DNA of 33,978 bases from an uncultured Planctomycetota bacterium (GTDB taxonomy: Bacteria > Planctomycetota > Planctomycetia > Pirellulales > Thermoguttaceae): NCBI GenBank assembly GCA_900318195.1, contig ONJR01000253.1, forward strand, positions 1-33,978, read 5' to 3'. The translations under genes were made by a program, and so were the position numbers. Below the pieces are notes generated by a model. The model was given only the letters and a program-made list of their open reading frames with translations. It ran no database searches and was not told where the DNA came from. The stretch's first letter is position 1. Each line of letters begins with the position of its first letter. Shown piece after piece: positions 1 through 33,856 of the stretch.

Positions 1-80
1 ATGCAGCGGAATAAATGGCTGTTCCCACCGTAGGTCAAAAGCGCCAACGGCGCGCAGCCCCCGACTTCAGTCGGGGGGTA
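1..80 (+). mobile_element. Possible right end of an IS200/IS605-type element (hairpin and omega-RNA 3' end)
   Basis: Positions 58-65 and 70-77 form a perfect 8-bp GC-rich stem (CCCCCGAC/GTCGGGGG) closed by the loop TTCA. A hairpin with a CGACTTYAGTCG core is typical of the right ends of IS200/IS605 elements, where TnpA recognises it as single-stranded DNA and where it also forms the 3' end of the TnpB guide (omega) RNA. An open frame runs through the hairpin to a TAA at 89-91, as tnpB often does. The rest of the element would lie left of the window. An alternative is a target-site cruciform of the DGR inferred next door, since those also have short GC-rich stems and small loops. The hairpin is seen; its family assignment is inference. 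Confidence 0.4.
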
Positions 81-91
81 TCGAGGCGTAA
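2..91 (+). pseudogene. Possible C-terminal tail of a TnpB-like protein, partial
   Basis: One frame is open from the window edge to TAA at 89-91 and encodes 29 residues ending SPRLQSGGIEA. That ending is translated from the hairpin at 58-77 and resembles tails of TnpB/OrfB proteins whose genes run into the element's right-end hairpin. The usual TnpB zinc-ribbon cysteines are not in the visible part, so the assignment rests on the hairpin and the tail alone. The frame converges on the 3' end of the four-domain protein. It may be spurious. Confidence 0.25.
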
Positions 92-136
92 CGACAACGC
101 GGCGCGGAAAGGGAACGCGGGTTACTGTATTGACGC

Positions 137-158
137 GGATTGGTTGCGTTACCAATCC
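137..158. other. 8-bp inverted repeat just after the variable-protein stop codon
   Basis: GGATTGGT (137-144) and ACCAATCC (151-158) form a perfect 8-bp stem around a 6-nt loop. It starts 19 bp after the stop codon of the minus-strand four-domain gene. No clear U-run follows in that direction, so it is a weak candidate for an intrinsic terminator. In the phage BPP-1 DGR a short hairpin/cruciform 3' of the variable region is needed for efficient retrohoming, so this inverted repeat could serve that role; this is inference. Confidence 0.35.
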
Positions 159-177
159 ACGACGAATCGACTGCTCG

Positions 178-3100
178 TTACTTGGAAGCGTCGGTCAGCT
201 CAAGCCGGAAGCCCAGGCTGCCGTCCCGAAGCTCCGGCGTGTACCTGCGACGGATCGCCGAACGGCAGTTCCTGGACGCGCTGCTCCAGCCGCCCCCGCG
301 ACTCACGCGGCCCGAGCCGTTTTTAGAACCGGTCAGATATGTCGCTTCGCCGCCAGGATAGTCTCCATACCAATCGGAGCACCACTCCCAAACATTACCG
401 TGCATATCGTAAAGTCCCCAGCTATTCGGCGACTTACCTCCTACCGGATGCGTTCTAATATTTGAATTCTCACTATACCATGCCAAACTATCCAAACTGG
501 CGCCGGGGACGTTATACCGACCAGTCGTACCCGCTCGGCACGCATACTCCCAATGCGCCTCGCTTGGTAGCTGGAACCTCATTCCGTTCGGCGCATACTG
601 CTGGATCTTCTCTATAAAAGACTGACAATCATTCCAGCTAACAAATTCTACTGGTAGCTTATTACCTTTGAAATAACTCGGGTTACTTCCTGTAACTTTC
701 TGCCACAACTCTTGCGTTGTCTCAACCTCCGCGAGCCAGAACCCACGACTTATCTTCACATTATGTCGCGTCTCATCCTCGTCGCGTCCCTCTTCACTCT
801 CCGGACTCCCCATCATAAACTCACCCGGCGGACACCAGCGAAAGTTTGTCTTTACACCGGCTATTTTAACAGTCAAAACGTCGTCTGCCGGACGTGAAGG
901 CGGGGACGGCGAGGGTGTGGTAGAAGACTGATTACCAAGCGGCTCAGGAGAGGACAATTCTTCCGAAATTGCAACTAGCTCAAGCCGGAAGCCCAGGTTG
1001 ATGTTCCGAAGCTCCGGCGCGTTCCCGTTACGGTTCGCCGAACGGCCGTCCCCGGACGTGTAGTACCAGCCGCCCCCGCGAATCACGCGGCTCGAACCGC
1101 TTTTGGGTCCAGTTGGGTCTGTCGCTTCGCCTCTAGGGTAATCGCCATACCAATCAGAACACCACTCCCAAACATTACCGTGCATATCGTAAAGTCCCCA
1201 AGCATTGGCGACATAACTACCGACCGGAGTCGTCTTCTTAAGATACTTTCCCTTCTTTTTTGTACCATAGGGATAATTACCATCACAATTCGCTTTATCG
1301 CCGTTAAGCGCCGTTCCAAAAGAAAAAGGAGTCGTCGTTCCCGCACGACAAGCATACTCCCAATGCGCTTCGCTAGGTAGCTGGAACCTCATTCCGCTTG
1401 GCGCATACTGCTGGATCTTCTCTACAAAAGACTGACAATCATCCCAGTTAACACTTTCTACTGGTAGATTATTACCTTTGAAATTACTCGGGTTACTTCC
1501 TGTAACTGTCTCCCACAACTCTTGCGTTGTCTCAACCTCCGCGAGCCAGAACCCACGACTTATCCTAACCTTGTGTCGCGTCTCCTCCTCGTCGCGTCCC
1601 TCTTCATTCTTCGGACTACCCATCATAAACTCACCCGGAGGGCACCAGCGGAAGTTTGTCTTTACACCGGCTATTTCAACGGTAAAAACGTCGCCTGCTT
1701 GACGTGAAGACGGGGGCGGTGGCGGCAATTTCTGAGAGGACGACTGGTTAGACCCGGACAATTCTTCCGGCGTCGCGGTCAGAACAAGTCGCAACCCTAA
1801 CGAAGTGGACGACTCGCTCGGGCTATGCTTATGTCGATGCGCAGACTGAAAGCAGTTCGGCTCCGACTTCCACGTCCCTCCGCGAACAACGCGATCCTGT
1901 CCCCTACTCGGTCCAACGGGATCTGTAACGCGCTCCGTTCCAAGGTCGTCGGCGTACCAATCCGCGCACCATTCGTCGACGTTCCCCTTCATATCCTTCA
2001 AGCCCCATGGGTTCGCAAGATAGTTCCCTACCGGAGACGTAAAGGCATAGCCGTCGTCAAAGGGAAACGACTTTTCAAGGTCTGAAATCACCGTTTTCAA
2101 TCGAGCGTCAGCGCCGTTTAGTTTGCCTTCCGCGTCTTCCTGCGCGTCGCCCCACCAGTAAATTGAGGTCGTGCCCGCGCGGCACGCATATTCCCACTGC
2201 GCTTCGGTCGGCAACTTAAACTCGGCGCCGGAGGGCGCGTAATTCTGATTCAGCCAACTAAGATACTCTTTAACGTCGCCCCAATTAATACAAACGACGG
2301 GGTGCGCGTCCCGTTGACTGTCCGTAACGGAATCGTCGTATTTCACCGTTTGCCAGTTGTGGGGAAGCTCGTCGCGTTCCGCGCTTGTTTTATAATCAGT
2401 CGCTACGGCGAACGCACGAAACGCCGCGACCGTTACCGGAACCTCGCCGAGCCAAAAACCGCGCGTGAGCGTTACGTAATGTTGTGTCTCGTTCTTGTAA
2501 CGCCCTTCAACGCTCTCCGGACTCCCCATCATAAACTCACCCGGCGGGCACCATCGAAACTTCGTCGGAATCCCGGCGATAAGCACGGTCTTCTCGTCCC
2601 CGGCTTTGAGCGCGGTTCCGGCGCTCAACTCGAGTCGCAACCCGAGAAAGTCCCCTTGCCCGGTAACGTCGAATCCGTTGCGCGCCGCCGAGCGACACGC
2701 GGTCGGCGGATCGTACCAGCATCCTCCGCGATGAACGCGCGCTTCAGGCGCGTCGCTAGTCGCGGGACGATAGCGGTCGGCGCACCATTCGCTCAGATTG
2801 CCCGCCATATCCTTTAAGCCCCAACGGTTCGCTTCAAAGCGTCCGACCGCGCAGAGGGTCTCGCATTCGTCGTCAAATGGAAACGACTCCCAGTCGCACC
2901 GGTACGTTTTCGCGCACGTCTCGTCGAATCCGTTAAGCTTACCCTTGCCGCTCCGCGCGTCGTCGCTATCCCACCAGTATGCGGTCGTCGTTCCGGCGCG
3001 ACAAGCGTATTCCCAATGCTCTTCCGTCGGCAACTTAAAGGAGAGACCGGCTGGCGCGTACTTTTGAACGGCGTCGATAAAGCGCTGGCAGTCGTTCCAA

Positions 3101-3447
3101 CTGACATTATCGACCGGCAACTCCTCGTCGCTACTACGAAAGTCGCTAGGATTGCGGTTCATCACCGCCTGCCATAGACGCTGCGTCGTTTCTGTTTCCG
3201 CCAGCCAAAAGCCCTGCGCTATCCTTACGCGACGCTGGTCCTCGTCCTGTCCGCGACCAGACTCCGTCGTCGGACTACCCATAACAAACTCGCCCGGCGG
3301 GCACCAGCAAAAGACAACGTCGACGCCGGCGATCTTTACCGTCTTACTCTCGCCGGCGCGTGTTCCTAGATTCCCGTCGTCCGCAACGAGCGTCGCGGTA
3401 CAGAACGCGAGCAAGGTCGCTGCTAACAGCGCGCGCAAACTTTTCAT
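178..3447 (-). CDS. Secreted protein with four FGE-sulfatase/C-type-lectin-fold domains; probable DGR variable protein
   Basis: A 1089-residue protein with a Sec signal peptide (about residues 1-22, ending before DDG) and a good ribosome site (GAGAGG) before the ATG. It holds four FGE-sulfatase (SUMF1-type) domains at roughly 30-280, 283-558, 586-823 and 855-1083. Each opens with IAGV...F.WCPPGEF.MGSP and closes with a GN..EWC.DWY, RGG.W and LG.RLEL block. The active-site cysteine pair of true formylglycine-generating enzymes is absent from the C-terminal motif, so sulfatase activation is unlikely and ligand display or binding is more plausible. Domains 3 and 4 are close copies. Their ends (residues 789-817 and 1049-1077) differ only at first and second codon positions, as expected for DGR variable regions. 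Proline/serine-rich linkers separate the last domains. Secretion is inferred from the signal peptide; the ligand is unknown. Confidence 0.9.
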   Translation of the reverse strand: MKSLRALLAATLLAFCTATLVADDGNLGTRAGESKTVKIAGVDVVFCWCPPGEFVMGSPTTESGRGQDEDQRRVRIAQGFWLAETETTQRLWQAVMNRNPSDFRSSDEELPVDNVSWNDCQRFIDAVQKYAPAGLSFKLPTEEHWEYACRAGTTTAYWWDSDDARSGKGKLNGFDETCAKTYRCDWESFPFDDECETLCAVGRFEANRWGLKDMAGNLSEWCADRYRPATSDAPEARVHRGGCWYDPPTACRSAARNGFDVTGQGDFLGLRLELSAGTALKAGDEKTVLIAGIPTKFRWCPPGEFMMGSPESVEGRYKNETQHYVTLTRGFWLGEVPVTVAAFRAFAVATDYKTSAERDELPHNWQTVKYDDSVTDSQRDAHPVVCINWGDVKEYLSWLNQNYAPSGAEFKLPTEAQWEYACRAGTTSIYWWGDAQEDAEGKLNGADARLKTVISDLEKSFPFDDGYAFTSPVGNYLANPWGLKDMKGNVDEWCADWYADDLGTERVTDPVGPSRGQDRVVRGGTWKSEPNCFQSAHRHKHSPSESSTSLGLRLVLTATPEELSGSNQSSSQKLPPPPPSSRQAGDVFTVEIAGVKTNFRWCPPGEFMMGSPKNEEGRDEEETRHKVRISRGFWLAEVETTQELWETVTGSNPSNFKGNNLPVESVNWDDCQSFVEKIQQYAPSGMRFQLPSEAHWEYACRAGTTTPFSFGTALNGDKANCDGNYPYGTKKKGKYLKKTTPVGSYVANAWGLYDMHGNVWEWCSDWYGDYPRGEATDPTGPKSGSSRVIRGGGWYYTSGDGRSANRNGNAPELRNINLGFRLELVAISEELSSPEPLGNQSSTTPSPSPPSRPADDVLTVKIAGVKTNFRWCPPGEFMMGSPESEEGRDEDETRHNVKISRGFWLAEVETTQELWQKVTGSNPSYFKGNKLPVEFVSWNDCQSFIEKIQQYAPNGMRFQLPSEAHWEYACRAGTTGRYNVPGASLDSLAWYSENSNIRTHPVGGKSPNSWGLYDMHGNVWEWCSDWYGDYPGGEATYLTGSKNGSGRVSRGGGWSSASRNCRSAIRRRYTPELRDGSLGFRLELTDASK
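196..309 (-). repeat. DGR-like variable region 2 (C-terminal domain 4)
   Basis: Coding strand reads from RV[S]RGGGW to LGFRLEL at the end of the gene (residues 1047-1083). Compared with 976-1089, 15 codons differ at 19 bases, all at codon positions 1 or 2. Examples are AGC/TAC twice after the Trp codon, CGC/AAC, TAC/AAC and GGC/ATC. Every difference fits a common template with A at that site, mostly AAC. The 18 bp CTGGGCTTCCGGCTTGAG at the 3' side (199-216) is identical in both copies and would be the homing-initiation (IMH-like) segment. The pattern is seen directly; the DGR origin follows from known adenine mutagenesis in DGRs. Confidence 0.8.
976..1089 (-). repeat. DGR-like variable region 1 (domain 3)
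   Basis: Second copy of the variable segment, encoding residues 787-823 (RV[I]RGGGW to LGFRLEL). It retains more of the presumed template state: AAC codons are present at residues 801, 803, 805, 815 and 817, where the other copy has ATC, CGC, TAC, GAC and AGC. The 18-bp block at 979-996 is identical to that at 199-216. This copy is internal to the reading frame, which is unusual because DGR variable regions are normally at the C-terminus of their protein. Confidence 0.75.
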
Positions 3448-7803: not shown

Positions 7804-10800
7804 TCAGTTCGCGTCGACCGCGCGCCACGTGGCGCCGAGCGCGGCGTCGAGCTGAAGGTCGTTAAGTCGTTTACCCGAACGTTTCGCGTCCCGGGTTACT
7901 TTCGCGCGCTCTTGGAAATACTCGTAGCGGCGTTCCTGATCCACTTCAATATCGGCGACCGGCTGGAAGTCGGACTCCTCGCCGCGACCCTGCTTGGCAA
8001 GTCGATCCTTACCGCGCGTTATGATCTCGAGCGCCTCGCGGTACCCCGGATCGACGAGCGCGTTCGCGGCGCCCCAGTGATTAAGGCACGGACTGCGCTC
8101 TGGTCGATCGAGCGAGACCGCTTGCGCGAGCGCAAGTCCCTTGAGCGTCGTAAGCTCTTCCAGACGTCGCGTCTCTTCCGGCGTGAGCGGCGAACGACCG
8201 TACGAGTTATTGCGATACGCGCTTCCATAAGTCGGATAGTACGGCGCGTTGATATCGATCCACGTAAAGACGCGCAACGCCGCGTCCGGATCCGTCTTCT
8301 GATCGACGTAGACGCCCATTTCCTTGCGCTTCTGATCGATCTCGGCATTGTCGTGTCCGGAAACAAAGATTTGCGCGAGCTTACTCTTCGTCGAGCCCCA
8401 TTCGTAAGGCGGCAGGACGTTGTGCGGACCCGCGCCGGGCACGCGAACGAGATTCTTCGCGCGGATCTGCCAGTAGGACGCGTTAAACGCAAGGTTGCGA
8501 TCGCCCGCGAGAACAAGTTTCTCGCCCGCTGGTTTGCCGAAATCGTGGCACGTTACGCAATATTTGTCGAAGACCGGCTGAACTTCCTCCATATAGCTGT
8601 ACAGCTTCGGCTCGCCAAACTGCGAAACGAGCTTCTGCGGCTCGCCCGACTCCTGCGCGCCCGCGAACGCGCCGGAACTGGGCGCGTCCAAACGACTTTC
8701 GTGGCAGCCGACGCACGCGTTCGTTTCGCCCGGACGAACCATAATGCCGCTGCGCATCGATTGTATGAGCCGGTAGTTCTCGTCGAGCAGTTGGAAGTAG
8801 ACGAATTTTTCAGCCGGAACGGCGAAGGACGCGCTGCCGTCCTCTTTAACGTCGACTATTCCGAGTATCCGCTTATTATTAAAGTCGTCCCACGCCATAC
8901 CGGGCGCTTGCGTGCCGCTACCGTCCCACAGCGGGTTCGTCCAGAACCGCTTCTCCGGCGACTCGACGACGCGCAAGTACTTAACGGCGCCCTTCTCGAC
9001 CTTATCCATTCCGAACCCTTCGTAGACGTTCGAGACGTGGAAATAGCCGTTCGGATCGTCGTACCGCACGCGATCGGCGATCGTCGGCGGAGGCGTCGTC
9101 GGCGCGACCGGAATCGGGTCGTAACATCCCGGCGCGTCGGTAAAAGCGAGAATCGAATCCCCCTCGGGCGTAAGGAGATAGATTCCCATCTCCTCGCCGA
9201 CGCCCGTTTGACCGGAGGCGAGAACGTACCCGTCTTCTAGCGGGAACGGGTCTTCGTACTTACGCGGCGAGTTTCTAAAGGTATCGTACTTAACGGCTTC
9301 GAGGAACGGATCGTTCGCGGGCGCGTCGGAGACCCAGTCGATCACCTCCGGCGGCCAGGTCTGTACGACCGGCTTGCGTCCGTCTGCGCCTAGTCTGCGG
9401 TCAATGAGCGCGACGGCGCCCCAGGGTCGATCGTGGCACGAGCCTAGCACGCAGACAAAGAGCGAGTCGTCTTCAGGGGTCGGTTTCGCGTCGATTACGC
9501 CGCCGGGGGACGCCGTGTTATTGCCCCAGAAGATTTCATGCTTGGAGCCGTCGGGATTCGTAACCCATACGCCTTGCGCGTCGCCGAAGTTGCGGTCGAC
9601 GTATTCCCAACGATCGTAAATAATTCTTCCGTCGGACAATAGCGCGGAATGCCCTTCGAAGAGCGTGCTCTTGCCGATCTGCTCGATATTGGTTCCGTCG
9701 CCGTTCATTTTGTGCAAGTTGCACATAATGTGCCGATTGCACATACAGTATTTCGGTTCGCGGGTCGAGGAGAAGACGATTTCGCCGGTCGGCAGATAGA
9801 TCGGGTCGATATCAGACGCGCCTTGCACAAAGGTGAGCTGTTTGAATCCCGGCAGCGCGGCGATTTCCTCGCGCGTTTCGTTCCCCTTGAGGACGATCGT
9901 CTCGCGCTCCGGCTCGAGCGTCATTTCGCCGATATGATAGAAGTCGTCCTTGGAGAGGCGGAATGAAAAGAGGACTTTCTTAGCGTCGAATGAGAGCGTC
10001 GGATCGCGCACGACGCCCTGCTCGAGTTGCAGTAAGTCCTTTGATCGATTCTCTTTCGGGTACCATAGCGCGAGCGCGGAGCCTCCGACAAAGCTATTTT
10101 CATTGATCTCGCCGGGCTGAAAGATCGTCGCCGTATTATGGTGGTCGGGACGATATTGCGTGCGTCGGACGTAGAGAACGGCGTCCGGTAGGAGGTCGGC
10201 GACCATTTTCCGCGCCTGCGCCTCGCGTTCGGCTTTTTCACGCGCGACGCGCTCGCAGAACGCCTTGCGCAACGCGGCGCCGTCCGGGTCGAGCCGTCCG
10301 GCAATTTGGAACGCGTCGCAGCGCATATGCGCCCAGGGTCCCGTCGTGAGATCGACGACCCTGATTACGGCGCGACGACCGCGATATTGACTTACGTCCC
10401 ACTTCACAGGGTCGAGTTTCTGACTGTCCTTACCTTTCGCGTTCATAACGGGCTCGACGTCGCCGTCTTCTTTAAGGAGCGCGAGTTCAACGCGTTCGGC
10501 GTCCCTATTGCCGGCGCCTCCGACGAGAAATTCAACGACGTCGCCGTCGATAACGAATACGGGCGACTCGATTACGCAGATTGTGTCGTCGGTCGGGCTC
10601 TCGTTTGCGGTCGATTCAAGGGTTGTTAGGTAGTATTTACCGCTCTTATCGTAGGGGACGGAGTTGTTATGGAACTCGACGTCGCGCGAGCCGATCGGTT
10701 TCGTATTCGCGCCTTCGACGATCGTCCAATCGTCCAAGCGTCCGGATTCAAAGTCGAAGACGAGCTTCTCCTGCCCGAGCGCGTTCGCGCACAACGCGAG

Positions 10801-10848
10801 CATAGCGCCGAACGTCGTCGCCAAACATAGGGTTAGAAAACGTTTCAT
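7804..10848 (-). CDS. HzsA-related secreted di-heme cytochrome c
   Basis: A 1014-residue exported protein (Sec signal about 1-25, ending ANALGQ; GGAG ribosome site). The central region resembles the middle domain of the hydrazine synthase alpha subunit. It contains a Cys/His cluster (CMCNRHIMCNLH) near 366, beta-propeller-like repeats, and two CxxCH heme c sites at about 712 (CVGCH) and 764 (CVTCH). Proteins of this HzsA-related family are common in planctomycetes that do not perform anammox, and the other hydrazine synthase subunits are absent here, so hydrazine synthesis should not be assumed. A periplasmic redox role is likely. It is the first gene of a four-gene minus-strand operon and follows a terminator, so it should have its own promoter within 10849-10905. 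Confidence 0.85.
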   Translation of the reverse strand: MKRFLTLCLATTFGAMLALCANALGQEKLVFDFESGRLDDWTIVEGANTKPIGSRDVEFHNNSVPYDKSGKYYLTTLESTANESPTDDTICVIESPVFVIDGDVVEFLVGGAGNRDAERVELALLKEDGDVEPVMNAKGKDSQKLDPVKWDVSQYRGRRAVIRVVDLTTGPWAHMRCDAFQIAGRLDPDGAALRKAFCERVAREKAEREAQARKMVADLLPDAVLYVRRTQYRPDHHNTATIFQPGEINENSFVGGSALALWYPKENRSKDLLQLEQGVVRDPTLSFDAKKVLFSFRLSKDDFYHIGEMTLEPERETIVLKGNETREEIAALPGFKQLTFVQGASDIDPIYLPTGEIVFSSTREPKYCMCNRHIMCNLHKMNGDGTNIEQIGKSTLFEGHSALLSDGRIIYDRWEYVDRNFGDAQGVWVTNPDGSKHEIFWGNNTASPGGVIDAKPTPEDDSLFVCVLGSCHDRPWGAVALIDRRLGADGRKPVVQTWPPEVIDWVSDAPANDPFLEAVKYDTFRNSPRKYEDPFPLEDGYVLASGQTGVGEEMGIYLLTPEGDSILAFTDAPGCYDPIPVAPTTPPPTIADRVRYDDPNGYFHVSNVYEGFGMDKVEKGAVKYLRVVESPEKRFWTNPLWDGSGTQAPGMAWDDFNNKRILGIVDVKEDGSASFAVPAEKFVYFQLLDENYRLIQSMRSGIMVRPGETNACVGCHESRLDAPSSGAFAGAQESGEPQKLVSQFGEPKLYSYMEEVQPVFDKYCVTCHDFGKPAGEKLVLAGDRNLAFNASYWQIRAKNLVRVPGAGPHNVLPPYEWGSTKSKLAQIFVSGHDNAEIDQKRKEMGVYVDQKTDPDAALRVFTWIDINAPYYPTYGSAYRNNSYGRSPLTPEETRRLEELTTLKGLALAQAVSLDRPERSPCLNHWGAANALVDPGYREALEIITRGKDRLAKQGRGEESDFQPVADIEVDQERRYEYFQERAKVTRDAKRSGKRLNDLQLDAALGATWRAVDAN

Positions 10849-10953: not shown

Positions 10954-13125
10954 TTACAGAGACAAGACGTATTCGATCAAGTCGTCCTGCTCCTCTTTGG
11001 ACAGCTCGTCGAACCGGCCGTCTTTAACGCCGTGCTTGCCAACCTCGAGAAGCTCGCGAATCGTTGTGTACGCGCCTGTATTGAGGTATGGCGCCGTACG
11101 CCACGTCTCGATAAGGGACGGCGTGTCGAACTTATCGATGAAGTCGTTCGGATCCTGCGACCCGACCCGATGCAGGCGCATATCGGTATAGAACGAGTCT
11201 TTAGGATGACAAGTCGCGCATCCGATTTTATCGCTTTCAAAGAGCTCCTTGCCGCGCTTCGCCGACTCGCTCAGTTCGCCGTTCACTAAATGCGGACTAG
11301 GCGCCGGCTTGAGCGCTTTGAGATACTCGTCAACGCAACACGCCTTCTCTTCGTCGTAGTGCATAAAGAGAATATGGGTAAATCCAGCGCGCACCGCCGT
11401 TTCCGCGTCCGCGCGTATTCCAGAAATCATACACGGCGGCGTCTCGTGCGACAGCAACATGCTCTTCGTATTCTTAAGATTGCCGGTTCCGTCGTTGAGT
11501 AGATCCCAATTGAACCCGTCGGCGCGCGCGTCCGGATGGCAGGTTACGCAACTGAGCCAATGCTCAAAGCAAGCGGTCGCGTCGTGAAAGGTTATTTCGC
11601 CGTGACGACGCATGGTGAGAACCGGCTTGGGCGCAAGTCGCGCAAACGCGCGGTCAATTTCGACGCCCTTCATTGGAATCGCGGGCGTTAGTTCCGTAAA
11701 GCGTAGCGGCGCGCCGTGCGCATTATCGGTCGCCGACTGCGCGTAGAGCGCCGCGAACGCGTCCTCTTCCTCTTGCGAATCGTCGATCGGGTCGGCTTTC
11801 TCGTCGTTCAACGCCTCTTGACGTTCGCGCGCCGCGCGCGTAACGGGCGGCTTCTCCTGCGCGACGTATGAGTTCGGGAAATGCTCGAAGGGCGGGTTCA
11901 GCTTTAGGGTCGCGCGGCATATAACGTCGTCGTACCGGGCGAGCGCGTAAAGTTCGCCGTTCCGTTCGATTAGCTGGCGAATCCCTTTGAATCCGAATTT
12001 AACGCGCAGTCTGAAGGGCAGTTGCACTTCGCCCTTCGCAAAGGTCTGATACGTATAGGCGCCGTACCCGGGTCGCGCCCATTCTGGACGTTCGTCGATC
12101 ATTTGCAGGAGCCGCTTGAGAGGCAAGTAAATAACCTCGTCCGTTCCGGCGATCGAGGCAATGAGGCGTTCGCCGTCGCTTGAAATTGCGATTCCCCAAG
12201 GGTTGCCGGATCCGAGTTCGGCGTCGTCGAGAAAGAAGATTTCAACGAGCTTCGCCTGCTCCACGTCGACGCAGAGCACGCAATTCTCCGAAATCCAGCC
12301 GCCGGAAACCTGACTCGTTATCGACAGATAGCTACACTGCACTGCGGGAACAAAAGCGTACTTGCCGTCGGAGGAAACGACCAAGTCCTGGAGAAGATTG
12401 TGCCCGTTGAGAAGCTCCGTTACCTTCTGTTCGCCGGTCGCAAGATCGATTACGCGCACTTCGGCGCACGAGAAGGAACGATTCGCCGGCATATTCGTTA
12501 TGCGATCAACGACGACCAGTTTATCCCCGTTAGGGGTAAGCTCAAGCGCATACGGCTCGCGCCCAGCGTCCCAGACGCGCAACTCCTCGCCCGTCGACGC
12601 CGTCAGCTCCTGCACCGTTCCCGAGTAGCAGTTGGCGACGTACAAAACGGCGTTCTCGCCCTCGCCTTTAACGGCGACGTCGGTCGGCGTGTGCCCTACG
12701 GAATAAACGTCCGTCAGCTTCGGCGCCGCGTCCGAGAGCTCGTAAAGAGCGACTCGTCCGTTTTCGTCCCCGCCTACGACCGCCAGACGACTGCCGTCGG
12801 GAAAGAGCGCCAGCTTCGTCGGTTTAAAGGGAACCTCGACCAGCTCGCTAGCGCTCGAACCGTCCGCCTTGACGCGCATGAGTCGCTCAGATTGATAGCC
12901 GACGACGTAGAAGAACTCGCCCTGCGCGTCGAGCGCAAAATCTGCAGGGTCAAAGTAATGCTCCGCGTCCTCGCCAAACTCCTCGCCCAACGTTGGTCGC
13001 GACATTGAGGAATAAATGGACGCCGTTCCCTGACCTAACGCCGAGTCCGACCCGACGCCGACCGTAATAAGCGTCGTAACGAGCGCGAGGATAAGCGCGC
13101 GACAAGCGGTTTCTCTTGATTTCAT
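10954..13125 (-). CDS. YncE-type beta-propeller fused to a di-heme cytochrome c
   Basis: A 723-residue exported protein (signal about 1-31, ending SALGQ). Residues about 45-420 consist of YVTN/YncE-like beta-propeller blades (for example GHTPTDVAVKGEGENAVLYVANC and REPYALELTPNGDKLVV). The C-terminal part carries two heme c sites, CVTCH near 526 and CATCH near 636. The stretch between them (WDLLNDGTGNLKNTKSM, then SHETPPCM) is characteristic of MauG/cytochrome c peroxidase-like proteins of planctomycetes. It probably works as a periplasmic electron-transfer or oxidising enzyme; the partner is unknown. No strong Shine-Dalgarno is seen before the ATG. It is monocistronic by its position between a terminator and a 123-bp upstream gap. 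Confidence 0.85.
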   Translation of the reverse strand: MKSRETACRALILALVTTLITVGVGSDSALGQGTASIYSSMSRPTLGEEFGEDAEHYFDPADFALDAQGEFFYVVGYQSERLMRVKADGSSASELVEVPFKPTKLALFPDGSRLAVVGGDENGRVALYELSDAAPKLTDVYSVGHTPTDVAVKGEGENAVLYVANCYSGTVQELTASTGEELRVWDAGREPYALELTPNGDKLVVVDRITNMPANRSFSCAEVRVIDLATGEQKVTELLNGHNLLQDLVVSSDGKYAFVPAVQCSYLSITSQVSGGWISENCVLCVDVEQAKLVEIFFLDDAELGSGNPWGIAISSDGERLIASIAGTDEVIYLPLKRLLQMIDERPEWARPGYGAYTYQTFAKGEVQLPFRLRVKFGFKGIRQLIERNGELYALARYDDVICRATLKLNPPFEHFPNSYVAQEKPPVTRAARERQEALNDEKADPIDDSQEEEDAFAALYAQSATDNAHGAPLRFTELTPAIPMKGVEIDRAFARLAPKPVLTMRRHGEITFHDATACFEHWLSCVTCHPDARADGFNWDLLNDGTGNLKNTKSMLLSHETPPCMISGIRADAETAVRAGFTHILFMHYDEEKACCVDEYLKALKPAPSPHLVNGELSESAKRGKELFESDKIGCATCHPKDSFYTDMRLHRVGSQDPNDFIDKFDTPSLIETWRTAPYLNTGAYTTIRELLEVGKHGVKDGRFDELSKEEQDDLIEYVLSL

Positions 13126-30934: not shown

Positions 30935-33856
30935 TCACTGCCACGGATTGTACAAGACGCCGTACTCGAAGAGCGTGCGTATCTCGCGCGCCGCATGTTC
31001 TTCTTCATCGGCTAAGACCTCTAGCGTATGTGGTTCAAGCTGACGCAGGCGGTCAATGTACCGACGTTCGGCGGCGAATAACTTGTCGGCGCCGCTCTCA
31101 TTGAAGGATATTCCAAAGAGCCGCTCTAGTATGTCGCTTCCGCCATGCTCGACATAGGCGCCTCGCAACACGCTAATTCTCGTCTGATCGAGTCGCGCGA
31201 GCGCAATCTCAACACCGTAGTCCTGACCAACTCGTTTAGCGCGCGCTAGCTCGCGACAACACAGGGCGGTCGTCGCGCGCAGATTGCCGCGCACCCATAT
31301 GACTTTTAGTAAATCAAGACTGGTATAACTCGTACGCTTCGGCGTCATATTCCATCGCACCAATTGCCGCTGGAACTCTTCCTCTGAAATACAGTCCCCT
31401 GTCATCCATTCGGTTATGCCGTCGTCGCCAAGCGCAGACGAGTCGGAAACAACGGACAAAACGTCGTTAATCGCAACCATAGCCGGCGTTACATTCTCGG
31501 GCTCCTGTGTTGTCTCGCGCGCGCCAAGTCTCAACCAGGCGCGAATCCTATCTATAAGGCGCGGCTTAGTCGTGGGCTTCTCGCGTCCGTAATAGAGCGG
31601 TTGAGCGCCGCTCGGGGTGGCAGTCCCTCCCTTTGATCGCGCTTCTCGATTCGGTTGCGCAATCAGTTTTAGTTCGCGATTATGCTCTCGCGCCCATTTC
31701 TCGCCGTAGCTACCGGAATAGACGAGCAACTTTGCCGGACAGTTGAAGAATGCGTTGGCGTGGATATATCGGACGTTTTCGGGGATAACCAGGCATTGTA
31801 GCGAGGAACAACCAGAAAACGCTTTATTCATAATCGACGCGACCTCTTTACCAAGTACGACGTTTTCCAATTGTGAACACCCGTAAAAGGCGTAACTCTC
31901 GATAATCTTGACCGTATCTGGGATATAGTAGTAATCGTTAGAAATCGTATTTGGATAATGGATGATCGAGCTTCGCGCCTTATTAAAGAGCGCGCCAGAC
32001 TCGGAGGAATACGATCTATTATGATCGTCGACTGTTACCTTCGTCTCTGGGGCAAAAGCGCCGATTCCAATGAGTTTAATGAAAGACGGTATAAATATTC
32101 CAGATAGCGCGGAACATCCTATAAACGCAAAATCCCCTATCAATCCGACCGTCGACGGAATAACGACGCTCCTCAATCTCGCGCAATCTTTAAAAGCCTC
32201 GTTCCAGACGCCAGCGACTTGCCTGCCGTTGATCGTCGACGGTATAACGACCTCGCCATTCTCGGGAATGCAATCGTTGTCAACGTGGGCGATCATAAGA
32301 TCGATACCGTGATTCATCGTTGTAAATAGCGGCTTTTTCGCGTCAAGAAGTACAAATTGACGACGATGGCTACGAGCCCAGCGTTCCGCATAGCTATCGC
32401 GATATACCAAGAGCGTAGCGGGACAACCGTTGAACGCGTCGGCGTCTATCTCTAGCGCCGTCCTTGGAATGACGAGGCTCGCGATACCGTTGCATCCAGA
32501 AAACGCGTACGCGCCAATCTTCACAAGACCTTCAGGCAACGTAAGATCCGAGATCATATCGCATTCGCTAAACGCTCGTTCGGCAATTGTTCTAACGGAG
32601 GAAGTAACGACGTATCTTTTGACGGACGGAGAGTTAGCCACATGAAATATCGTTTCCATACGTTTATCAAAGAGCGCGCCGCCGTTTGAACAATAAAAGC
32701 TGTTATTTGAATCAACTTCCACGCTACAATTTTCCGAAAACGCACAGCTCCCAATATTCCGCACGGTTGCGGGTACAACAATCTTCGTTAGCGAATCACA
32801 TCCTAGAAACGCAGACGCGCCGATCGAACAAACGCCCTCTGGTATGACGACCTTCGACAGTTTAGAGCAATTCATGAAGGCGCTCGGACTAATCGTAGCT
32901 TTACTTCCGGGCGCTATAATAACAGTGTGCAACGATTGACAATCCTGGAATGCGCTCGAACCGATCAAATCCGCGCTTTTGGGAATCTCAACGGTAGTAA
33001 GTCGACTACATTTGAAAAACGCGCTATTCCCTATTCGCGTAACAGACTCGGGAATAACGACGCTGGTAAGAGTCGCGCATTGCGCAAATGCGCCGTCGCT
33101 AATCGCCTCAACGGGACGACCGTTAATTTCGCGCGGAATAGCAATTCGACCGTCTGACGAAATAGAAGCGGCGTCGACTCCGGTTATGACGACGCCGTAG
33201 CCGGAGTTTTCGTACGTAAGCGCCAACTTTAACTCATACGGTCTACTGTGGGCGATCGCCCAGCGCTCGGCGTAACTACCGGCGCATACTTCAAACGTCG
33301 CGTTGCAGTTCACAAAAGCCGAGTCGCTAATCTCTGTAAGCGCGTTCGGCAAACGAACTCTTGCGAGCGATCGACAATGCGCAAAGACGTTATTGCCAAG
33401 ACGCGTTACGCTTTCCGGAATCGTTACGCTTTCCAGCGCGCTGCACGCGGTAAAAGCGCCGGAACCGAGCGACTCGACGCCGTCCGAAATAACGACGCTT
33501 TTAATCGAATCACACTCGACAAACGCATAATCGCCTATGCCTACGACTCGTTTACCGCAGATTTGCGAAGGTATTACCACATTCCCGCTTTCCGGAAGGT
33601 TCGCGCGCTCGATTCGCGTAATCACAACGCCGTCGCGCGTCTCTTCGTACCCGTACCAACTTCTGACGTCGTAACTACGACCATGTTCGCGCGCCCAACG
33701 TTCCGCATAGCTGCCTTCGTACACGATTAACTTCGCAGGACAATGGACAAATGCGCTGCTCCCGATCTCTGTTACGCGCTTGGGAATGGCAAGCGTCTTC
33801 AGCGACCAGCATTCTGCAAAAGCCCAGTCGCCTATCGACGTTAATGTCGACGGCAA
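30935..33856 (-). CDS. BspA-type leucine-rich-repeat protein, probably 5'-truncated
   Basis: About 973 residues reading from a TTG at 33856. Twenty-one LRR_5/BspA repeats of the form IG..AF..C..L..V.IP fill residues 1 to about 715. They fall into four modules, each ending in a (G/D)SYAE(R/K)WAR.H.R-like block followed by a DGVVIT-type strand and a VVIP...I.G..V block. The last 240 residues are different: a basic Pro-containing linker, then a helical part with GDCISEEEFQRQLVRW and a closing EEEHAAREIRTLFEYG segment that I do not recognise. The repeat pattern continues in frame upstream to 33901 (VFSNCVALANLTLP), where a stop (33902-33904) interrupts, so the real N-terminus, including any signal peptide, is missing. 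BspA-like proteins usually act at the cell surface or in binding; the role here is unknown. Confidence 0.75.
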   Translation of the reverse strand: MPSTLTSIGDWAFAECWSLKTLAIPKRVTEIGSSAFVHCPAKLIVYEGSYAERWAREHGRSYDVRSWYGYEETRDGVVITRIERANLPESGNVVIPSQICGKRVVGIGDYAFVECDSIKSVVISDGVESLGSGAFTACSALESVTIPESVTRLGNNVFAHCRSLARVRLPNALTEISDSAFVNCNATFEVCAGSYAERWAIAHSRPYELKLALTYENSGYGVVITGVDAASISSDGRIAIPREINGRPVEAISDGAFAQCATLTSVVIPESVTRIGNSAFFKCSRLTTVEIPKSADLIGSSAFQDCQSLHTVIIAPGSKATISPSAFMNCSKLSKVVIPEGVCSIGASAFLGCDSLTKIVVPATVRNIGSCAFSENCSVEVDSNNSFYCSNGGALFDKRMETIFHVANSPSVKRYVVTSSVRTIAERAFSECDMISDLTLPEGLVKIGAYAFSGCNGIASLVIPRTALEIDADAFNGCPATLLVYRDSYAERWARSHRRQFVLLDAKKPLFTTMNHGIDLMIAHVDNDCIPENGEVVIPSTINGRQVAGVWNEAFKDCARLRSVVIPSTVGLIGDFAFIGCSALSGIFIPSFIKLIGIGAFAPETKVTVDDHNRSYSSESGALFNKARSSIIHYPNTISNDYYYIPDTVKIIESYAFYGCSQLENVVLGKEVASIMNKAFSGCSSLQCLVIPENVRYIHANAFFNCPAKLLVYSGSYGEKWAREHNRELKLIAQPNREARSKGGTATPSGAQPLYYGREKPTTKPRLIDRIRAWLRLGARETTQEPENVTPAMVAINDVLSVVSDSSALGDDGITEWMTGDCISEEEFQRQLVRWNMTPKRTSYTSLDLLKVIWVRGNLRATTALCCRELARAKRVGQDYGVEIALARLDQTRISVLRGAYVEHGGSDILERLFGISFNESGADKLFAAERRYIDRLRQLEPHTLEVLADEEEHAAREIRTLFEYGVLYNPWQ

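Follow-up and report, generated by a model that had tools for sequence, protein, structure and literature searches.

The target gene considered here raises the question of how two variable regions (VRs) of the kind made by diversity-generating retroelements (DGRs) came to lie in a single polypeptide, one of them in the interior of the chain, and where the machinery that would have written them resides. The window, that is, the whole stretch of DNA analysed, is 33,978 nucleotides long and constitutes the entire contig C221 of a 4.18-Mb draft genome (283 contigs, 86% complete) of an uncultured Planctomycetota bacterium. The gene (178..3447, minus strand, as are all features of the gene and its downstream side given below) encodes a protein of 1,089 amino acids with four FGE-sulfatase (PF03781) domains (Pfam, E 2.6e-164) and no other domain at an E value of 0.001, and its N-terminal stretch, judged by eye, resembles a Sec signal peptide. 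Domain searches place FGE domain 1 at 2632..3306, and no current VR was recognised there, since its end gave no VR DNA match and was not flagged as VR-like in the template comparison described below. Domain 2 (1783..2550) has no current VR either, its end mismatching the closest template at 31 of 78 non-A sites. Domain 3 (982..1644) terminates in VRa (976..1098, residues 784-824, delimited by alignment and template comparison) and domain 4 (202..834) in VRb (196..318, residues 1044-1084), five residues before the stop codon. VRa is internal to the chain, yet it occupies the end of its own FGE domain and is followed by an invariant 3' block, and both VRs have the placement of a DGR target, at the end of a domain of the C-type lectin/FGE fold. 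The 3' blocks, 21 bp long and identical (977..997 in VRa and 197..217 in VRb), are candidate IMH elements, a role assigned to them by position and identity. By eye, the domain ends appear to lack the pair of active-site cysteines that characterises the catalytic FGE enzyme. FGE domains are frequent in this draft, with 43 matches in 4.2 Mb, many of them within open frames of more than 1,000 amino acids.

The best solved relative of the protein by sequence is Treponema denticola variable protein 1 (TvpA, 2y3c; E 2.5e-33), which is also the best fold match of a structure model of residues 575-1089. The model has a mean pLDDT of 82.9 and a pTM of 0.53, so that the position of the two modelled domains relative to each other is unreliable. 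The target would act at the cell surface as a binding protein that presents two variable faces.

The two VRs differ in a manner that is clearly distinct from the divergence of the domains around them. A preliminary description of this DNA had counted 19 base differences in 15 codons between 196-309 and 976-1089, and these were found again with the same residue pairs, although 20 of the 114 columns differ over this span. The twentieth difference (CTG/CTA, plus-strand positions 196/976) is a third-position change in the outermost column, beyond the 21-bp 3' block. Moreover, the variable stretch begins one codon before that listing, with residues 786 and 1046 (AGC/GGC). Outside the VR, domains 3 and 4 show 104 differences in 190 aligned codons, 51 of them at third positions; inside the VR, only 1 of 21 differences in 40 codons is at a third position (Fisher p = 7e-5). 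When 150 sliding segments of 40 codons were taken from the sequence outside the VR, the share was never as low as this 0.048, the minimum of 0.11 coming from a segment with only 9 differences. The claim that third-position changes accompany the divergence of the flanking parts and are nearly missing from the VR is borne out by these counts.

Adenine specificity was assessed with further copies of the VR and with templates from related genomes. Besides VRa and VRb, the same draft has a third copy, VRc, at 271-393 of contig C22, where it falls close to the end of a protein of 533 aa that has two FGE domains, and contigs C62 and C23 carry decayed ends of VR-bearing FGE genes. When the DNA of VRc was used as a query against 147 genomes, the own draft included, 23 of them matched, and nine loci in relatives contain a stretch with AAC at the variable codons that lies within the 3' end of an RT-like frame or directly after it. 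Eight of these template loci were counted, the truncated L061 being excluded, and they serve as stand-ins for the missing own template. The closest one, that of G024, which was chosen as the best of eight after all had been inspected, has A at 25 of the 27 positions where VRa, VRb and VRc are not all alike and at 6 of the 93 constant sites (p = 5e-18). Taken singly, the other seven have A at 19 to 24 of the 27 varying sites, and the majority of the eight templates has A at 21 of 27 varying and 9 of 93 constant sites (p = 2e-11). Variation in the three copies is, by relatives' templates, almost wholly confined to A sites in the manner of a DGR variable region, with one clear exception at a T site. 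The preliminary description had held that every difference between VRa and VRb is compatible with A in the template, which is formally correct, but residue 801 does not fit. Its codon is GGC in VRa (1045..1047, located by template alignment), TGC in VRb and VRc, and TGC or TGT in the relatives' templates; since all eight have T at the changed base, the TGC/GGC change is probably not an A-site change. The other non-A exception with respect to the closest template concerns VRc, at the third position of a GAG/GGT codon.

The same pattern recurs in relatives that have both template and target. In G015, G024, G011, G078 and G079, the target on the same contig has 17-23 mismatches to the 30-33 A sites of the template and no mismatch to its 75-78 non-A sites. 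In G126, one target differs from the template at 16 of 30 A sites and 1 of 78 other sites, and a second, which is one codon shorter, has 11 mismatches at 78 non-A sites. Further targets compared with the template of their own genome are less clean, with 3, 3, 5 and 7 mismatches at 76 non-A sites in G005, 5 of 78 twice in G015, 4 of 75 in G078 and 6 of 77 in G079. With an author-set cut-off that tolerates up to 14 non-A mismatches to the best template, VR-like stretches occur in 33 ORFs (the 8 template frames excluded), and two copies occur in only two of these, the window's gene and one in G090, a count that additional copies may escape, as many VR-like loci are clipped at their 1.5-kb flanks. 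The G090 ORF (L156, 4126-8112; 1,329 aa) has three VR-like domain ends that differ mainly at A sites (p about 1e-6). Because 14 to 21 non-A sites differ as well, and third positions are also affected, this ORF looks like an older, decaying DGR target with multiple VRs. A scan with a degenerate template pattern gave one exact match in genome_contigs (L149, a contig of a Saprospiraceae MAG) and none in viral_contigs. In addition, nine phage records show partial blastn matches to the last two domains of the target (72-90% identity), and in L055 (742-3603) a decayed orphan VR end is accompanied by a tandem series of five ORFs, each of about 160 aa, that resemble one another by eye.

In relatives, the templates belong to a cassette of the HRDC-type DGR lineage, in which an HRDC protein adjoins the RT and its template. 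The gene order in G015, a member of the same genus, is target, HRDC protein, RT and template; for this genome, Pfam recognises the RT (RVT_1, E 2e-15) and the adjoining small protein (HRDC, E 1e-17). The same layout is seen in G011, G024, G078 and G079, with an ORF of like size in the place of the HRDC gene. These ORFs measure 162-177 aa in G011, G024, G074, G078 and G079 and 227 aa in G005; the contig of G074 stops before any template, and that of G005 starts 188 nt before the ORF, so that its target is out of view. Seven aligned RTs share invariant P-I-G-x-L-T-S-Q and Y-M-D-D motifs, the former of which is taken here to be a mark of DGR RTs. The G015 RT, used as a query against the 147 genomes, gave some match in 50, many of them to other RT classes at about 25-35% identity. 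Long and strong matches in the same genus were limited to G005, G011 and G015 among 19 relatives. VR-like stretches are more widespread, being present in 9 of these 19 (G004, G005, G009, G010, G011, G014, G015, G017 and G019), of which 3 have a full-length match to a DGR-type RT. Targets with no visible RT are common among the same-genus drafts G001-G019.

The own draft, 86% complete, yielded no template in a search with VR DNA and no DGR-type RT in searches with RVT_1 and with the RT of the same-genus G015, and for this reason the complete element can only be deduced. The one RVT_1 match was dismissed as a DGR RT, being an RT-Cas1 fusion beside Cas6; this locus (L001, G000 C278:33793-37404), where the fusion adjoins a Cas6-type protein, is a CRISPR locus with a reverse transcriptase. 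The HRDC protein of G015 found one weak match, a 658-aa frame on C10 (E 2.6e-7, 29% identity). The position at which the contig ends may be informative. It stops 177 nt past the stop codon of the target, inside a dispersed repeat (1..148) that has 33 matches in the draft, this copy counted among them, several at contig ends; this repeat, with its stem-loops, likely fragments the assembly. In G011, G015, G024, G074, G078 and G079, the stop codon of the target is followed, after 176 to 406 nt, by the start of the gene in the HRDC place. By analogy with these genomes, and because the contig ends within that distance, a cassette of HRDC protein, RT and template may sit just beyond the break.

A natural comparison is provided by P0002, a homologue from another assembly in ENA (3 member sequences, the longest on a contig of 66,449 bases), which was compared as protein. 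P0002 is also 1,089 aa long, and its 31 residue differences from the window protein all fall within residues 781-849 (901..1107, from the protein alignment), the other 1,020 residues being identical. Fifteen of the 31 are in VRa, and 14 of these 15 are at codons with A in the closest template; furthermore, VRa of P0002 departs from the inferred template at asparagine codons only. The remaining 16 are outside the VR, three before it (781-783) and thirteen in the linker that follows (826-849), and VRb is identical in both proteins. In P0241, the homologue of the C22 protein, VRc is unchanged and 4 residues differ elsewhere. The expectation that related strains would vary only in the codons of the VR is, therefore, upheld for VRa, which varies as predicted, but not for the linker, which varies too, nor for VRb, which does not vary. 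The comparison supports DGR authorship of VRa and does not indicate present activity at VRb and VRc, as both are identical in the homologues. The linker change is not explained by retrohoming alone. Given that 16 of the 31 differences lie outside the VR, a joint replacement of VRa and the linker seems to have taken place, the simplest route being recombination with an allele or with a further tandem FGE gene. The own draft yielded no donor of this tract, its best match there being the window itself (69%), and no RT was placed on the P0002-bearing contig by any of the 120 listed of 2,327 RT homologues.

Taken together, it is very likely that VRa and VRb were written by an HRDC-type DGR whose template and RT are predicted to lie outside the assembled draft. 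The DGR interpretation made in the preliminary description is supported by the match of variable sites to A in relatives' templates, the likeness to TvpA, the HRDC-type cassettes of relatives and the VRa differences of P0002. According to this model, the HRDC protein, RT and template would be located just past the end of the contig, the RT would copy the template with random bases at A positions, and the mutated cDNA would replace VRa, VRb and VRc. The target protein would then be exported and present two variable lectin-like faces, which could allow two-site or multivalent binding. Recombination would additionally move VR segments between related genes or alleles, as suggested by the linker difference beside VRa of P0002. 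A further, tentative possibility, which is held with rather low confidence, is that the internal VR is renewed by recombination together with retrohoming, DGR-mutated modules of VR and linker being swapped between tandem FGE genes. Such swapping would explain why the replaced tract of P0002 continues for 25 residues beyond the VR and why an internal VR can lack a downstream hairpin, and one template could in this way feed a combinatorial store of two-faced binding proteins. Several observations weigh against the DGR account, namely the absence of template and DGR-type RT from the draft, the less clean targets in relatives, the P0002 differences outside the VR, the unchanged VRb and VRc of the homologues, the two changes that are not at an A of the closest template (TGC to GGC in VRa and GAG/GGT in VRc) and the lack of a perfect stem of at least 6 bp downstream of VRa, a hairpin having been proposed as needed in BPP-1.

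Hairpins were set aside as DGR evidence. A study of BPP-1 proposes a hairpin downstream of the VR as a conserved need (PMC3240598). In the window, a perfect inverted repeat with an 8-bp stem and a 6-nt loop starts 37 nt after VRb (137..158), and a second one, with an 8-bp stem and a 4-nt loop, is found within the dispersed repeat (58..77). VRc has a downstream 6-bp stem, and VRa has no perfect stem of at least 6 bp in the 200 nt downstream. In sets of 500 shuffles, 106-118 attain a 6-bp stem and 7-8 attain one of 8 bp; among 62 coding stretches of the target gene, the respective counts are 10 and 4. Only the stems of VRb stand out, and only a little, and both overlap the dispersed repeat or lie in it.

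Several other explanations deserve consideration. Positive selection can yield amino-acid-changing differences in binding loops, but ordinary selection of this kind on a duplicated loop, with no DGR involved, is extremely improbable here, as the changes affect the A of the template codons AAC, AGG and ACG and leave the codons between them untouched, and the same positions are AAC in relatives' templates beside RTs. An artefact of assembly also seems improbable, though less so. In that case a false join between similar tandem domains, either in the window or in P0002, would have brought in an internal VR and linker from another gene. Domains 3 and 4 are indeed near-repeats, and the differences to P0002 are all contained in a single tract with sharp borders; on the other hand, the two assemblies give proteins of equal length, in the same frame and with the domains in the same order, that share 1,020 identical residues, P0002 is found on contigs of up to 66,449 bases against 33,978 here, and the linker of P0002 is absent from the own draft.

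The reading that competes most closely with an element still in existence is that the VRs were made by a DGR whose RT and template have since been lost, the copies now being only inherited and recombined. This is unlikely, although it gains from the absence of RT and template from the draft, the unchanged state of VRb and VRc in P0002 and P0241, and the finding that, of the nine same-genus relatives in which VR-like stretches occur, three show a DGR-type RT match of full length; moreover, T. denticola isolates devoid of the DGR core are described as retaining target genes (PMC4891356). Nevertheless, only 2 of the 27 sites varying among VRa, VRb and VRc are non-A in the closest template, indicating that little ordinary change has accumulated; these drafts also lack part of their genomes, and the break in the contig falls at the place that the cassette occupies in relatives. 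An HRDC-type DGR outside the assembled draft is, thus, the preferred reading.

The closest known system is that of T. denticola, where HRDC-type DGRs with remote FGE targets have been described (PMC4891356). As in that system, the proteins considered here are FGE targets of the C-type lectin fold, an HRDC accessory protein is present in relatives, targets may be remote, and mostly asparagine codons are varied. They differ in that TvpA has a single C-terminal VR, whereas the window protein has two FGE domains each with a VR, one of them internal, and in that the RT is absent from the own draft. The view that two VRs in one protein are unusual agrees with one survey, in which a minority of the multi-VR DGRs, 31 of 271, have more than one VR in the same chain (PMC6642488), although such proteins have already been published. 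In Marichromatium purpuratum 984 (DiGReF, 2012), the first case with tandem FGE domains, an ORF of 3,366 bp has three VRs in tandem FGE paralogs, and its authors were undecided between a sequencing artefact, a pseudogene and an expressed gene (PMC3521204); it resembles the present gene in having several VRs in one tandem-FGE ORF, but here two assemblies concur on the twin-VR ORF, and two of the four domains vary. DGR 4 of Thiohalocapsa PB-PSB1 (2024) likewise has one target with three unequally diversified VRs, a diversification best explained, according to its authors, by a template in trans (PMC10907252). The organism and the gene neighbours are different in that case, and in the present one the exchange appears to have taken in the linker beside the changed VR. 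DGRs with two VRs, and hence more than one per element, are also described from Faecalibacterium phages (2024); these are phage-borne, and the part of that report consulted does not state that both VRs are in one ORF. ORFs with multiple VRs are, then, already known, and the apparent joint exchange of VR and linker is the part worth following. No such exchange appears in the portions of the DGR literature consulted, and the part seen of PMC4372165 mentions gene conversion in general terms only.

This locus could serve as a system for asking how retrohoming selects one of two nearly identical sites within the same gene, whether a hairpin is dispensable at an internal site, and whether recombination spreads DGR-made diversity. 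Moreover, it illustrates that target genes can be recognised in draft genomes that lack their RT. Elsewhere on the contig, a 1,014-aa protein (7804-10848) contains the middle domain of hydrazine synthase alpha (PF18582, E 7.7e-33), and the frame beside it (10954-13125) has a weak MauG-like match below the cut-off of Pfam. Near the other contig end, a BspA-type leucine-rich repeat protein of 973 aa is encoded at 30935-33856.
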